A stretch of DNA of 64,000 nt from an uncultured Gemmiger sp. (GTDB taxonomy: Bacteria > Bacillota > Clostridia > Oscillospirales > Ruminococcaceae): positions 1-64,000 of the forward strand of contig CALXBE010000005.1 in the NCBI GenBank assembly GCA_944386495.1, in the 5' to 3' direction. The notes beneath the pieces were generated by a model, which was not told the origin of the DNA, ran no database searches, and worked only from the letters and a program-made list of their open reading frames with translations. The position numbers and the translations under genes were made by a program. Shown here piece after piece: positions 2,113-6,776 of this stretch. How positions within the stretch are numbered: position 1 is the stretch's first letter; each line of letters opens with the position of its first letter.

Positions 2113-3393
2113 TTAAATCCGGCGGCACTCCATATAGTACCGCTTTTCCTGGGCATGACCCATGCTGAAGGTCTTCCGGGGAAGGACCCCGCCCAGGACG
2201 ACCCCTTTGAAGAGGTCGCTTTTTTCAAAGTCCGGGAGAAGGAACCCTACGGCGTTCTCCTTGGCCAGGTCCCGGACGGCCTGAATCCCGTGGATGTAAT
2301 CCACCGTCAGCTCCGGGCTGTGGGCCAGCAAATCTTCCAGGAAGGTTTCCAGGCTTCCCACGGCCAGGGGATGCTCCGGATTGTCCAATCTCAGGATAAT
2401 CTCCTCCTGGCCGGACACCATGGTAAGAGTCTGTTCCCCGGGCAGGCCCACTTTCAGGGTGACTCCGTGGGCTTTGGCGTAAGCCTGCCACTGGTTCAGG
2501 AGAGCAGCACAGTCGGTCCCGAACACCACCCGGTGGATGGGCTCCATAGCCAGGGCGGGGGAGTGGACATTTACCACCTCGGCCAGGCAGTACCGGGCAG
2601 GATGGTTTTCCTGTTCCTCAGGGGTAAGGGTGGCCTTGAGTTCTTCCCAGTAGGCTTTGGCGGTGGCCAGACTGTGGTTTCCGTCCCCCACTGCCATGGT
2701 CAGGGGTTGGGAACCTGCCGCCTGGGGGTATTTGGCATCAAAGCTCTCCTGGCTGCCCAGGGCATCCAGGGTCTGGAGCACCTGCCCCATGAGGGCGGGG
2801 TCCTCCACTGCCCAGCCGGTGAGATGGCCTCCCTCCAGCATGAGAGGGGTGTCATACACCTGGGTCAGATGGGATTTGCTCCGGGTGAGAGGCCCCAGGA
2901 GGGCATCCTGGGGGTCATCCACCAGCATCATTACATGAGGGGTCTCCAGGGGAGCGCCCCGGCGGACTGCCAGCCGGGGAGGAATACGGCTTACCACCGT
3001 ATTCTCGCTGGGACGGATGGGAGGTGTGGCCCCGGGGGCATAGCTGTAGGCTTCCAGGTCAATGGCGCCTACCAGACCGCACCGGATGGAGCCGTCCATC
3101 TGGGTCCGCTCCAGGTAGATGAAGCCCTCCACCTTCCGGGTCAGGACCTCTTCCAGATACTCGTTCATGGACTGATGAATCCGGGCGATTCGGGTCTCCA
3201 CCCCCGGCTGTTCCAGATAAAGCTCGGGCAGGATCAGGTTGAGGGTGCTGGGGGCATCCCCCACAAGCCGGGCGGCACTGGCCCAGTACTCCGGCTGACT
3301 GGTGAACTGGTCACAGGCCACACAGGCCCATTTTTCCAGGTCCACCTGGGTATGGGGAAGGAGAATGGAGGCGGGAGCAAAGTAATGACCCAT
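2113..3393 (-). CDS. DUF1015 family protein
   Basis: About 426 residues. I recognise the DUF1015 family from the opening FAPAS..LPH, the internal AVGDGNHSLATAKAYWEEL block and the length; such proteins are soluble and of unknown function, although the GDGNHSL motif resembles a catalytic or ligand-binding loop. The open frame extends further upstream, but that part is antisense-like sequence overlapping rnfA; the ATG at 3393 is preceded by AGGAA at a normal distance and begins the conserved sequence, so I chose it. It follows rnfA by 19 bases and precedes the helicase by 20, implying co-transcription. Whether it serves the Rnf-like proteins is unknown. Confidence 0.85.
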   Translation of the reverse strand: MGHYFAPASILLPHTQVDLEKWACVACDQFTSQPEYWASAARLVGDAPSTLNLILPELYLEQPGVETRIARIHQSMNEYLEEVLTRKVEGFIYLERTQMDGSIRCGLVGAIDLEAYSYAPGATPPIRPSENTVVSRIPPRLAVRRGAPLETPHVMMLVDDPQDALLGPLTRSKSHLTQVYDTPLMLEGGHLTGWAVEDPALMGQVLQTLDALGSQESFDAKYPQAAGSQPLTMAVGDGNHSLATAKAYWEELKATLTPEEQENHPARYCLAEVVNVHSPALAMEPIHRVVFGTDCAALLNQWQAYAKAHGVTLKVGLPGEQTLTMVSGQEEIILRLDNPEHPLAVGSLETFLEDLLAHSPELTVDYIHGIQAVRDLAKENAVGFLLPDFEKSDLFKGVVLGGVLPRKTFSMGHAQEKRYYMECRRI

Positions 3394-3412: not shown

Positions 3413-4027
3413 TTAAAGGGTAATGGTATGGCCGGTAAAGCCGTAGATGGCCAGGGCCAGGATGCCGATGTAGACCAGGGTGATGGGCATTCCCCGGAAG
3501 ATGGCGGGGACGGTATCATTGTCCAGCCGGCGCTCTGCCTCGTCCACCAGAAGCACAGCCATAAGGTAGCCCAGGCTGGTGCCTACACCAAAGCCGATGT
3601 GCTCTATGAGGGTGTAGCCCTGGGTGGAGCAGATGATAAGGGTGCCCAGCACATTGGTGTTGAAGCTGGCCAGGGGAAGGGTGCGGAGAAGTTTCAGTTT
3701 GTGTTTGAAGGGAGCCAGGCAGAGGAAGCCCAGCACAATGAGATACGCCACCAGGGCACAGCCCAGGTAAAGGAGGGGCCGCAGGGGAAGACGAAGTTCC
3801 GCAGGCAGCCCGGGAATCACCCGGTTCAGTACAAAGAAGCCCATGGGGGCGGTGAGCAGCTCCACCAATGCCAGCAGTACCCAGAACTGGAAGGTGCCCA
3901 CAGCATCATCGTTTACCAGACGAATCAGCCGGGAAACACCCAGGCCCCGGGTGAAAACTGCGTTTTCCGCAAAAACTGCCAGGACGGCATAGGTGAGAAA
4001 GATGGTAAGATCCCGAATCATTTCCAT
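3413..4027 (-). CDS. RnfA/NqrE-like membrane subunit, divergent
   Basis: 204-residue polytopic membrane protein with about six hydrophobic helices. It aligns by eye with RnfA (NqrE) over its length: the first helix (AENAVFTRGLGVSRL), the FNTNVLG segment (122-128) and the C-terminal PAIFRGMPITLVYIGILALAIYGFTG block. In characterised Rnf/Nqr complexes RnfA and RnfE each give two cysteines (in GLCP and NC motifs) to a [2Fe-2S] cluster within the membrane. Here the corresponding stretches read GLGVSRL (28-34) and FNTNVLG, without cysteine; the Cys present (90, 103, 133) sit elsewhere. Its start overlaps rnfE by 10 bases and has an AGGAGG-type ribosome site. Membership of the family is likely; ordinary Rnf electron transfer is doubtful. 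Confidence 0.8.
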   Translation of the reverse strand: MEMIRDLTIFLTYAVLAVFAENAVFTRGLGVSRLIRLVNDDAVGTFQFWVLLALVELLTAPMGFFVLNRVIPGLPAELRLPLRPLLYLGCALVAYLIVLGFLCLAPFKHKLKLLRTLPLASFNTNVLGTLIICSTQGYTLIEHIGFGVGTSLGYLMAVLLVDEAERRLDNDTVPAIFRGMPITLVYIGILALAIYGFTGHTITL

Positions 4028-4677
4028 ACAGCCTCCTGGGTCAGATGAAGTTTTTTGGCGTTGGCAGCATACCGCCAGATGGCGCAGATCAGCCCCAGCA
4101 GGATGAATCCGCCGGAGGGCTGGTTGGCCAGAGGCATAAGGTTGGTGGAACCAAAGTAGACCTGATGTTCAAACAGGCAGCCGGTAGCCAGGAATTCCCG
4201 GATGGCACCCATGAGGAATACCACCGCCGCAGCGCCGAAGAAGGTGCTGATGCCCTGTTTCAGGGCGGAGGTGATGGTCTCCAGCCGGGTCCGTTCGTTC
4301 CGGTTGATGATGAGGGGGTCCACCACCAGAATGGGCAGGTAAAGACCCAACAGCAGCAAATCGGTGCCGAAAATCTCTACCAGAAGAAGATAGGCGGGAA
4401 TATAAATGAGAGCCGCCATAAAAGGATAGAGCACATAGTGGCCCCGGTTTCCGGTGATGGTAAGCACCGCCACCGTCAGCACCCGGGTGGGGACCAGAAG
4501 AAGAGCCAGAGCGGCAATGAGCATGACCGCATTCCGGCAGCTGGTGTCGGCTACCACGATGGGGGCCAGGCCCAAGCCCTGAAGCATGACCGGATTGTTC
4601 ATAAAGACCCGGTCATTCTGAATCCGTTGGAGGACCGCCCGCTGCGCGGGAGAGGGATTGGTGTTATGCGTCGCCAT
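4018..4677 (-). CDS. RnfE/NqrD-like membrane subunit, divergent
   Basis: 219-residue polytopic membrane protein. The RnfE signature NNPVMLQGLGLAP (27-39), the LPILVVDPLIINRNE stretch (114-128) and the GAIREFLATG block match RnfE/NqrD. The two cluster cysteines of the family are replaced: GLCP has become GLAP (Ala38) and the usual NC pair is DP (120-121). Cys47 and a Cys near the C-terminal half are not at the family positions. The gene overlaps the end of rnfD by 14 bases and the start of rnfA by 10, so the three are translationally coupled. Normal Rnf operons also carry rnfC, rnfG and rnfB, which are absent here. Confidence 0.8.
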   Translation of the reverse strand: MATHNTNPSPAQRAVLQRIQNDRVFMNNPVMLQGLGLAPIVVADTSCRNAVMLIAALALLLVPTRVLTVAVLTITGNRGHYVLYPFMAALIYIPAYLLLVEIFGTDLLLLGLYLPILVVDPLIINRNERTRLETITSALKQGISTFFGAAAVVFLMGAIREFLATGCLFEHQVYFGSTNLMPLANQPSGGFILLGLICAIWRYAANAKKLHLTQEAVWK

Positions 4678-6046
4678 TGGAATCCTCCTTTCTGTCCTGA
4701 GCGGTGGGGATATTTTTCAGGCTGGGAATCATAAGGGTCAGGCCGTCGTCGGCAAACCGTTTCTTGGGCACACGCTTGGGGGCTGCTTGCCGGGGAGCGG
4801 ACTGCTGAGCCGGAGCGGCTTTGGGCGCAGCTGCCGGCTGAGCCGCGGTCTTGGGTGCAGCTTGCTGGGGAGCAGCTGCCTTGGAGGCGGGAGCCTGCCG
4901 GACGGCTGCGGGTTTTTGAGCCGGTGCCGTCTGGGCAGCGGCGGGGTTGGCCCGGGCAGGAGCCGCGGGCTGAGCCTGAGCAGAAGCAGGCTTGGCCTGG
5001 ACTGCGGGAGCTGCCTGGGGAACTGCCGCCGGTGCAGCGTGGGCAGGAGCAGGCGCTTTGGCTTTCCGACGGGCCAGGAAGGCCAGAATCTTTTCCACAG
5101 TCAGGTCAAGACGGTCGGAGAGAGCATTCAGAATCAGAATGGCAAAGCAGGCGCCGATCTCATATGCGCCGAAGTACCGGATCATCATGGTCAGGATTCC
5201 CAGGAAGAAGCCGTAAACGATCTGGCTGCTCCGGGAACGGGGATGCGTTACCGGCTCACAGATGAGGAAGAGGGCGGCAAAAAGGGTGGCTCCGGTGAGA
5301 AGCTCATATTTTGCCACGGTCAGCCGCTGGGGCAGATAGGTCCAGGGCAGAGAGAACAGGGGCATATCCCCGGTGCCTGCCCGGGGAAGAATCCAGACCA
5401 CCAAAAGACAGGCAAACAGGAAGGAAAGGATGGTGGTCAGCCGAATCCGCTTGCGGAGAAGGAGGAAGGCACCGCAGCCAATGAGGATCAGGGTGAACCC
5501 GGCTCCCAAAGGCCCGGCATAGTTGCCTACCAGCAGCTGTACATTGCTCAGGTTGGGCAGACCGCCGTTCCGAAGGGTGGCGCTGGCACTGTCGTAAAGG
5601 GTGAGGGTGCCGGTGCCGGTGATGGGGATTTTCCCCAGGGCGGGATAGCGGAACACTTCCTGAGGCCAGGCGACCGCCACCAGGCTGTATCCCACTGCGG
5701 CGGGGTTGAAGGGATAGTTCCCGGCGCCGCCGAAAATCTCCTTCACCACCACGGCGGTGAGGACCGCAATGGCCAGTACATAAGCGGAAATGTTGGGGGG
5801 CATCAGAAGGGTGAGGAGAACGGCAAAGCACTCGCTGCTCAGCTCACCGCTGTCGTAATCCGGACCGTGAAGAGGAGCCAGCAGACGGTCGCACACATAA
5901 GCCATAAGATAGCTGACGGCGGCCAGAATCACCGGGCGGGGACCATACAGCACATAGCTCATCATAAGCAGGGGGATGGTGCAGAAAAGCACATCCCGGT
6001 AAAATCCTGCATTAGGAGAGGGGGTAACAGGCTTGAGCTCAGGCAT
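4664..6046 (-). CDS. RnfD/NqrB-like membrane subunit with long Ala/Pro tail
   Basis: 460 residues. The membrane part (about 15-325) resembles RnfD: VKEIFGGAGNYPFNPAAVGYS, a candidate flavin-attachment segment DSASAT (152-157, canonical form S-G-A-T), LLTGATLFAALFLICEPVTHPRS and MMIRYFGAYEIGACFAILILNALSD. In Rnf/Nqr the threonine of that segment carries covalent FMN; the Thr is kept but the Gly before Ala is Ser. Residues about 331-440 are a low-complexity Ala/Pro/Gln/Lys tail on the presumed cytoplasmic side, not usual for RnfD (about 320-350 residues). The ATG at 6046 follows GGAGGA and overlaps the rpe stop codon (ATGCCTGA); the longer open frame upstream is inside rpe. Confidence 0.82.
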   Translation of the reverse strand: MPELKPVTPSPNAGFYRDVLFCTIPLLMMSYVLYGPRPVILAAVSYLMAYVCDRLLAPLHGPDYDSGELSSECFAVLLTLLMPPNISAYVLAIAVLTAVVVKEIFGGAGNYPFNPAAVGYSLVAVAWPQEVFRYPALGKIPITGTGTLTLYDSASATLRNGGLPNLSNVQLLVGNYAGPLGAGFTLILIGCGAFLLLRKRIRLTTILSFLFACLLVVWILPRAGTGDMPLFSLPWTYLPQRLTVAKYELLTGATLFAALFLICEPVTHPRSRSSQIVYGFFLGILTMMIRYFGAYEIGACFAILILNALSDRLDLTVEKILAFLARRKAKAPAPAHAAPAAVPQAAPAVQAKPASAQAQPAAPARANPAAAQTAPAQKPAAVRQAPASKAAAPQQAAPKTAAQPAAAPKAAPAQQSAPRQAAPKRVPKKRFADDGLTLMIPSLKNIPTAQDRKEDSNGDA

Positions 6047-6713
6047 GACATCCTCCTTCCTGGCCGGCACTCTTGAGAAGCGTGCAGGCCCGGGCGGGGT
6101 CCTCTGCGCCAAATACCGCACTTCCTGCCACCAGCAGGTTGGCACCGGCGCCGATGCAGAGAGGAGCGGTATTCATATCAACGCCGCCGTCTACCTCCAG
6201 ATAAATCTCCCGGCCCCGGGCTTTGCATTCCCGGTCCAGGACTTTCAGCTTGTCCAGAGCCTGAGGCATGAACTTCTGCCCCCCGAAGCCGGGCTCCACG
6301 CTCATGACCAGGACCAGCTCCAGCCGGTCCAGATAGGGGAATACCTCCTCCACAGGAGTGCCCGGCTTGACCGAAAGTCCGGCCTGACAGCCGGCGGCAT
6401 GAATGGCATCGATCACGGCGCCGGGGTCATCCTCGCTTTCCAGATGGAAGGTGATGAGGGTGGCACCTGCTTTTGCAAAGGCTCCGATGTAGTCCAGGGG
6501 ATGGGAAATCATCAGGTGAACATCATAAAAAGCCTGGGGAAGGGCTTTGTGAAGGCTGGCCAGAACCGGAACACCAAAGCTGATGTTGGGAACAAAATGG
6601 CCGTCCATTACATCAAAGTGAAGCATATCTGCCCCGGCATCCAGCACCTGGCGGCAGGCCCGTCCCAGGTTGGCAAAGTCGGCGGACAGAATGGAAGGAC
6701 TGAGTTTGATCAT
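6039..6713 (-). CDS. rpe: Ribulose-phosphate 3-epimerase
   Basis: 224-residue TIM-barrel enzyme that interconverts D-ribulose 5-phosphate and D-xylulose 5-phosphate in the pentose phosphate pathway. Visible motifs: SPSILSADFANLG at the N-terminus, DVMDGHFVPNISFG with the catalytic Asp and His, HLMISHP, SVEPGFGGQKF and the VDGGV phosphate-binding segment. Length is normal. The ATG at 6713 is preceded by AAAGGAAT; the longer frame upstream lacks family sequence. It is the first gene of the operon and overlaps the start of the rnfD-like gene by 8 bases. No functional link to the Rnf-like genes is known to me. Confidence 0.95.
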   Translation of the reverse strand: MIKLSPSILSADFANLGRACRQVLDAGADMLHFDVMDGHFVPNISFGVPVLASLHKALPQAFYDVHLMISHPLDYIGAFAKAGATLITFHLESEDDPGAVIDAIHAAGCQAGLSVKPGTPVEEVFPYLDRLELVLVMSVEPGFGGQKFMPQALDKLKVLDRECKARGREIYLEVDGGVDMNTAPLCIGAGANLLVAGSAVFGAEDPARACTLLKSAGQEGGCHA

Positions 6714-6776
6714 AATAATTCCTTTCGGATCAGGGGAGGAGAAACACCCTCCCACGGTAACTACATAAGTAATATG

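Follow-up and report, generated by a model that had tools for sequence, protein, structure and literature searches.

A second, divergent rnfD-rnfE-rnfA gene set lacking the [2Fe-2S] ligands and the covalent-flavin threonine in an uncultured Gemmiger

Divergent second copy of rnfD, rnfE and rnfA

The 64,000-nucleotide stretch analysed here (the window; positions 1 to 64,000 of contig CALXBE010000005.1 from an uncultured Gemmiger sp., GCA_944386495.1) carries a module of three overlapping minus-strand genes, D2, E2 and A2, which resemble rnfD, rnfE and rnfA (Table 1). Coordinates and Pfam matches bear out the original prediction, made from the letters of the DNA, that such a trio is present, and its statement that rnfB, rnfC and rnfG are missing next to it likewise held, as none of these was recognised adjoining the module. 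The three proteins clear the Pfam cut-offs in a profile search but stay far below those of NCBIfam, with scores of 128.7 versus 207.05 for rnfD, 56.5 versus 213.4 for rnfE and 51.3 versus 229.3 for rnfA. D2 consists of a membrane core of about 320 amino acids followed by a C-terminal tail of about 140, and PF03116 is its sole domain at E 0.001. An AlphaFold model of the core (predicted local distance difference test score, pLDDT, 88.7) is nearest to the solved RnfD 9eri_D, with a template modelling (TM) score of 0.79; RnfD/NqrB folds rank first and are followed by weak matches to urea and ammonium/Rh transporters (E 0.08 and up). The A2 model is fair (pLDDT 75.3) and carries none of the claims made here.

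Rather than the organism's only, reduced Rnf, the module is a second copy that has diverged, because the rnfC, rnfG and rnfB genes found in this genome (1.89 Mb, 81% complete) belong to a separate canonical operon with D, E and A genes of its own. This complete rnfC-D-G-E-A-B operon on contig C8 keeps the cluster cysteines, the SATPL motif, the riboflavin residues and the GGAGFP loop of RnfC, and its RnfD is just 28% identical to D2. The only RnfC found in the genome with PF13375 (RnfC_N) is that of the canonical operon, and PF04205 finds its RnfG together with FMN_bind domains in two other large open frames, which lie on other contigs and apart from RnfG (G000:C24:8203-8403, L153, and G000:C11:59419-59625, L155; 624 and 752 codons). 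The original prediction had envisaged a reduced or re-purposed complex unable to use the known cluster route, and had counted rnfC, rnfG and rnfB elsewhere in the genome, together with a normal rnfAE, as evidence to the contrary. Such genes exist, but in the canonical operon, beside D, E and A genes that belong to it. That the known cluster route is closed to the module is supported, and more strongly than the original prediction had it: besides the cluster ligands the covalent-flavin motif has gone and, in the clade of the window, the riboflavin pocket and an RnfC partner too.

Selection on the module was gauged by the ratio of nonsynonymous to synonymous substitution rates (dN/dS) against two congeners. 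It is 0.026 and 0.133 for the D core, 0.071 and 0.114 for E2, and 0.096 and 0.079 for A2, similar to the 0.019 and 0.110 of the adjoining rpe gene, and the module is kept under purifying selection. The tail of D2 (4664-5077) is of low complexity, rich in Ala, Pro, Lys and Gln, and where aligned it evolves faster than the core (0.126 and 0.266).

Table 1. Genes of the module and its neighbours, and codons at former cofactor sites, in window coordinates
Feature	Position	Strand	Remarks
rnfD-like gene D2	4664..6046	-	ATG at 6046; PF03116, 184.5 bits
rnfE-like gene E2	4018..4677	-	PF02508, 67.8 bits; aligned with solved RnfE 7zc6_E
rnfA-like gene A2	3413..4027	-	PF02508, 52.7 bits; aligned with solved RnfA 7zc6_A
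rpe, ribulose-phosphate 3-epimerase	6039..6755	-	PF00834; directly upstream of D2, overlapping
DUF1015 gene	2113..3393	-	PF06245, 200.6 bits; probable start 3393; directly downstream of A2
A2 Ser32-Arg33 codons	3929..3934	-	replaces Cys-Pro, first RnfA cluster ligand; Arg in 52/54 of window clade
A2 Thr124 codon	3656..3658	-	replaces second RnfA cluster Cys
E2 Ala38 codon	4564..4566	-	replaces first RnfE cluster Cys
E2 Asp120-Pro121 codons	4315..4320	-	replaces Asn-Cys, second RnfE ligand; window clade: acid 54/54, Pro 50/54
D2 Ser153 codon	5588..5590	-	column of flavinylated Thr of RnfD/NqrB
D2 Tyr111 codon	5714..5716	-	column of riboflavin-binding Asn200 of V. cholerae NqrB (site from excerpts of PMC9325719); Tyr in 54/56 of window clade
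D2 Phe74 codon	5825..5827	-	column of riboflavin-binding Thr162 of NqrB

The end of rpe overlaps the start of D2 by 8 bases, D2 overlaps E2 by 14 and E2 overlaps A2 by 10; a Shine-Dalgarno-like stretch lies 5' of D2, and the DUF1015 gene follows 19 bases past A2. Judging by this spacing, rpe, D2, E2, A2 and the DUF1015 gene are probably expressed as a single transcript.

Cofactor sites and newly fixed residues

Residues at the cofactor sites were compared across 107 RnfD rows left after identical rows were dropped: 26 canonical, 15 from modules with an RnfC-like gene and 66 from modules without one (DEA-only). Reference sites were mapped through the canonical proteins of the window's own genome, and the window was also aligned to solved chains. 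A row counted as canonical if a G or B gene was recognised at its locus and as a module if not; the tree described below bears this out save for L072, which has canonical residues throughout, sits among the canonical rows and was set aside, leaving 80 modules, 65 of them DEA-only. In L072 (G037:C68) the D-E-A genes stand at the contig start; neither a G in the roughly 300 bases separating D from E nor a B past A was recognised, and its genome also holds a normal operon elsewhere (L073). Left out of the census were identical proteins and, for each subunit at a locus, every match except the top-scoring one; the fragment L148 shows gaps.

Published work is cited here by PubMed Central (PMC) number, as given in excerpts of the papers. 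The [2Fe-2S] cluster is held by Cys29 and Cys112 of NqrD and Cys26 and Cys120 of NqrE in NQR (PMC9325719), and by Cys25 and Cys113 of RnfA and Cys26 and Cys109 of RnfE in Rnf (PMC9588780). All four are replaced in the window, at Ser32 and Thr124 of A2 and at Ala38 and Pro121 of E2, whether the proteins are aligned with the organism's own normal RnfA and RnfE or with the solved chains, in agreement with the original prediction that these cysteines are missing. Across the modules the first A ligand is never Cys (0/76, versus 23/24 canonical rows), and neither is the first (0/78 versus 25/25) or the second (0/78 versus 24/25) E ligand; since three of the four sites never hold Cys, the loss is not due to chance. 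A substitute set of conserved cysteines at the cluster site was considered and rejected, as the lists of invariant and near-invariant (90%) residues of A2 and E2 hold no Cys. The majority residue adjoining the old second ligand in the A2 consensus is Cys, and in the window it is Asn125. Separately, a full rnfCDGEAB cluster in another genome (L077, G054:C9) reads GCGSF in place of GxCPF in RnfA and NG in place of NC in RnfE, possibly another route of ligand change within a full Rnf; that genome carries a second CDGEAB cluster (L149).

The flavin sites of D2 have changed as well. In NqrB, riboflavin is bound at Thr162, Gly198, Asn200, Asn203 and Asp346, and flavin mononucleotide (FMN) at Thr236 (PMC10739449, PMC9325719). 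The column of the covalent-FMN threonine holds Thr in 25/25 canonical rows (one further row, a fragment, is gapped) and in 0/80 modules, and the motif [STGAV][AGP]TxL near the flavinylation site is present in 25/26 canonical proteins versus 0/80 from modules. The original prediction had D2 keep a flavin-type threonine in DSASAT; this proved out of register, because the canonical column falls on Ser153. The threonine of DSASAT, Thr157, lies four columns downstream and is Thr in just half of the window clade (28/56), and alignment register and motif census together rule it out as the flavin site. At the riboflavin site, Asn200 is retained in 25/25 canonical rows and in 15/15 modules with an RnfC-like gene, and in 2/65 DEA-only modules. 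Within this last group the Thr162 position is Phe in 42, the Asn200 position Tyr in 55 and the Asn203 position His in 40; the window reads F, Y, N and E at T162, N200, N203 and D346, which does not amount to a riboflavin pocket. The proposed Phe gate of NqrB (Phe338/Phe342; exit Glu273, PMC10643135) and the acid at the D346 position are mostly retained in modules. Conserved cysteines of D2 in the window clade are Cys52 (49/56) and Cys300 (55/56), the latter standing, by our residue count on the alignment, in place of the serine aligned with Ser284 of C. tetanomorphum, which contacts FMN (PMC9588780). From these sequence features, redox function has very probably been lost in the window clade.

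In turn, the window clade has nearly fixed charged residues that canonical Rnf does not have: Arg33 (52/54), Asp40 (53/54) and Glu163 (53/54) in A2, and Arg23 (52/54), Arg65 (54/54) and Glu133 (54/54) in E2. Given that NqrE-Cys26 and NqrD-Cys112 pair across the interface in the NQR structure (PMC9325719), Arg33 of A2 and the acid at position 120 of E2 should, by analogy, face each other. This pair occurs in 52/54 rows of the window clade, in 0/14 rows with an RnfC-like gene and in 0/8 rows of the second DEA-only group.

Distribution, gene neighbours and the RnfC-like partner

A tree built from the concatenated D, E and A proteins (62 rows, trait columns excluded, rooted on canonical Rnf) separates the modules from canonical Rnf with support of 100/99. 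The window clade comprises 16 rows (100/100), all DEA-only; other DEA-only modules form a second clade of 7 rows (100/100) and, separately, the long branch L150, and the modules with an RnfC-like gene do not form one clade. The nearest named records are uncultured Clostridia, followed by Gemmiger, Fournierella and Faecalibacterium. By our count of loci read, the module is present in 30 of the 37 genomes sampled from the window's family (Ruminococcaceae in a wide sense, our label; filed as Oscillospiraceae in the tree) and in 5/24 from other families of the order; the seven family genomes that do not have it include three without any rnfD match and two of 55% and 75% completeness. A class-wide search found Rnf-Nqr matches in 86 of 118 genomes. 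Beyond the window genome, the number of matches is four in G054 (same order), G120, G134 and G159, three in G149, one in G073 and G078, and two in the others. Among the matches listed, the second-set rows of G120, G134 and G159 score above 203 bits versus 52-68 for the window, an indication only, resting on those matches, that the module does not extend beyond the order.

The neighbourhood of the module differs from that of canonical operons. Of 80 distinct module loci, 78 include an rpe gene, which in all 78 shares the strand of the module, versus 1/26 canonical loci, and DUF4015, a putative glycosyl hydrolase family, lies on the same strand in 61/80 module and 4/26 canonical loci, with no match in the window's genome. 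DUF1015 is found on the same strand in 34/80 module loci. In 13/80 (L053, L054, L057 and others) an oppositely oriented MecA-like gene, matched by PF05389 in L054, sits between rpe and the RnfC-like gene.

An RnfC-like gene precedes D in 14 loci of our first set and in L127. In the 14 loci it spans 344-439 codons, except for one of 786 (L049, 2026-4386), which has a long tail rich in Ala, Ser and Glu after the [4Fe-4S] domain. All 14 aligned proteins have lost the GLGGAGFPTHVKL loop, which binds reduced nicotinamide adenine dinucleotide (NADH) and FMN and corresponds to GGAGFP of RnfC, and the cysteines of both [4Fe-4S] motifs are intact. In 18 genomes with DEA-only modules every strong RnfC match adjoins a non-module rnfD match, and the RnfC-like partner therefore seems to have been lost rather than moved. 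Over 37 tree rows, this loss goes along with that of the riboflavin Asn: both are kept in 13, the gene alone in none, Asn alone in 1 and neither in 23. Another locus (L137, G052:C16) holds rnfC-, D- and B-like genes with no A, E or G recognised in 11 kb.

Candidate functions and comparison with known systems

The best explanation as a whole, to which we give slightly less than an even chance, is that the module encodes an Rnf-derived complex without electron transfer, in which A2/E2 and/or D2 would act as a redox-independent carrier or gate. This reading fits best because what the module has retained is precisely the two candidate ion paths of Rnf/NQR, and because the half-helix core of RnfA-RnfE, through which Na+ crosses in a model of the A. 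woodii Rnf, has been likened to Na+/solute symporters (PMC12174285). With canonical Rnf as outgroup, duplication would have come first, followed by loss of rnfB, rnfG, covalent FMN, the cluster (at least three of four ligands) and the NADH/FMN loop of the RnfC-like partner, at a stage when the [4Fe-4S] motifs of the partner and the riboflavin pocket of D2 would still have been kept. Later, the window clade would have lost both the partner and the pocket and fixed charged residues in its A2 and E2 proteins, above all where the cluster once sat, with Ser-Arg in A2 and Asp/Glu-Pro in E2. Carrying or gating an ion (Na+ or H+) or a small solute could now fall to the inverted A2/E2 dimer, in which broken half-helices would cross at this site, to the urea/ammonium-transporter-like D2, or to both, and the Arg-acid pair would take over a structural or ion-binding job of the cluster. 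The carrier function of D2-E2-A2, drawn by analogy, is a tentative assignment to which we lean less than halfway. That a redox-driven pump became an alternating-access carrier in Faecalibacterium and its close relatives by stepwise cofactor loss, with Arg-Asp/Glu substituting for the cluster and aromatics filling the riboflavin pocket, is possible and rather doubtful.

Several observations weigh against a redox-independent carrier or its derivation. The exit Glu of the Na+ path (E273) is lost in 79 of 80 modules and kept just in the deep-branching L065, and Asn203 of the same path is lost in 47/65 DEA-only modules. The second A ligand remains Cys in 27/76 modules (one row gapped), versus 24/24 canonical rows, and is lost in the window; both riboflavin Asn are still present in L050 and L059, DEA-only modules that have no RnfC-like gene, and judged by sequence a non-covalent flavin may still be bound somewhere in D2. 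Two members of the window clade (L044, L116) lack the Arg of the charged pair and also have Gln for the E2 Pro, and the pair is confined to one clade, so that the coupling has no independent replicate. About three independent changes underlie the tie between losing the RnfC-like gene and losing the riboflavin Asn, on which no statistical test is possible, and with close relatives among them the census rows are not independent. Finally, none of the neighbour genes (rpe, DUF4015, DUF1015) points to a substrate or function.

It is conceivable, though unlikely, that the module still works in redox chemistry, with non-covalent flavins in D2 (riboflavin, or FMN without the threonine) taking electrons partway across the membrane from a borrowed soluble donor or from canonical Rnf subunits. 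The bulky groups placed at riboflavin positions in the window clade (Thr162 to Phe, Asn200 to Tyr) speak against this, as do the finding of only a canonical-type RnfC and a module with neither cluster, covalent FMN nor adjoining RnfG. Most of the window clade nevertheless retains an acid at the D346 position, and the RnfD-like subunit of a published two-gene Nqr/Rnf-like system, described in excerpts as having no covalent site, is thought to bind flavin (PMC10979944). Moreover, the 14 aligned RnfC-like partners keep both [4Fe-4S] motifs next to an intact riboflavin pocket, and these relatives may well pass electrons from [4Fe-4S] to riboflavin. A regulatory or assembly role, in which D2, E2 or A2 pairs with canonical subunits to give inactive or tuned complexes, is improbable in our estimate too. 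Such partners would be at hand in 28 of the 30 module-bearing family genomes, which have at least one further rnfD match (the exceptions, G001, in which two matches represent a single gene, and G003, are 77% and 84% complete); these further matches are mostly unread, and an RnfC match adjoins most of them in the family genomes checked. Cofactor-free relatives with a proposed structural role exist, for example NqrA (PMC12174285). However, rnfD has no second match in G042, a 98% complete genome whose module branches deepest, modules go with rpe and DUF4015 and not with the canonical operon, and the two RnfD proteins share only the low identity given above.

The Faecalibacterium literature, with its 'two putative rnf operons', takes the genes for an ordinary working Rnf. 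This reading agrees with Pfam membership, fold and a figure legend (PMC10781979), but is contradicted by the ligand census and by a module without adjoining donor or acceptor subunit, window cluster ligands or covalent-FMN motif; we regard it as very improbable. Least credible is that the genes are decaying pseudogenes or a product of faulty assembly. Nothing beyond motif loss favours decay, which is ruled out by dN/dS and synteny, given the open, coupled frames, the low dN/dS and rpe on the same strand in nearly all loci, and the module also occurs in a Faecalibacterium complete-genome record and in isolate records.

The module bears on wider questions. It is still debated whether Na+ passes across RnfD/NqrB or across the RnfA-RnfE dimer in Rnf and NQR (PMC12174285), and a natural, cofactor-stripped membrane core under selection offers a test object for this question. 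The graded series from full Rnf, to modules with only [4Fe-4S] motifs and riboflavin pocket, to modules with neither makes the order of losses readable. For Faecalibacterium, a human gut butyrate producer in which rnfDEA is counted as one of two putative rnf operons (PMC10781979), rnfDEA should not count as a second energy-conserving Rnf in flux or expression work without proof. In the open-licence PubMed Central literature, the name rnfDEA occurs in one paper, and no account of a cofactor-less Rnf was found.

Among known systems, RnfD-RnfE-RnfA of Rnf shares with the module its D-E-A gene order, Pfam families and fold (checked for D alone, against 9eri_D), whereas the module forms a separate clade without adjoining rnfB, rnfC or rnfG, cluster ligands, covalent-FMN motif and, in the window, riboflavin pocket. 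Na+-NQR (NqrB/D/E) belongs to the same superfamily and is held to come from rnf duplication with loss of rnfB (PMC4014512); it keeps its membrane cofactors and recruited NqrF, whereas the module has neither covalent FMN nor cluster and no visible recruit (no NqrC/RnfG-type gene was recognised beside it, where the neighbours are rpe and DUF1015; NqrF was not searched for). The two-gene Nqr/Rnf-like flavinylated system (PMC8238504, PMC10979944) likewise has an RnfD-like subunit without the flavinylation Thr in the excerpted descriptions, but differs in its RnfG-like subunit and in a C-terminal NAD domain on the RnfD-like protein; D2 has no such domain and no FMN_bind subunit lies beside the module, the genome's FMN_bind matches being on other contigs, and the module has A and E instead. 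To urea transporters and AmtB-Rh, D2 bears a resemblance of fold only, and a kinship of RnfD with these proteins has been published (PMC12174285). Closest is the Faecalibacterium rnfDEA (CG447_09840-830; PMC10781979), which by gene order and genus is most likely the same module; in three Faecalibacterium loci (L121, L126, L129) the module adjoins rpe. The difference lies in interpretation, as the excerpted paper treats rnfDEA as part of a working NADH:ferredoxin oxidoreductase.

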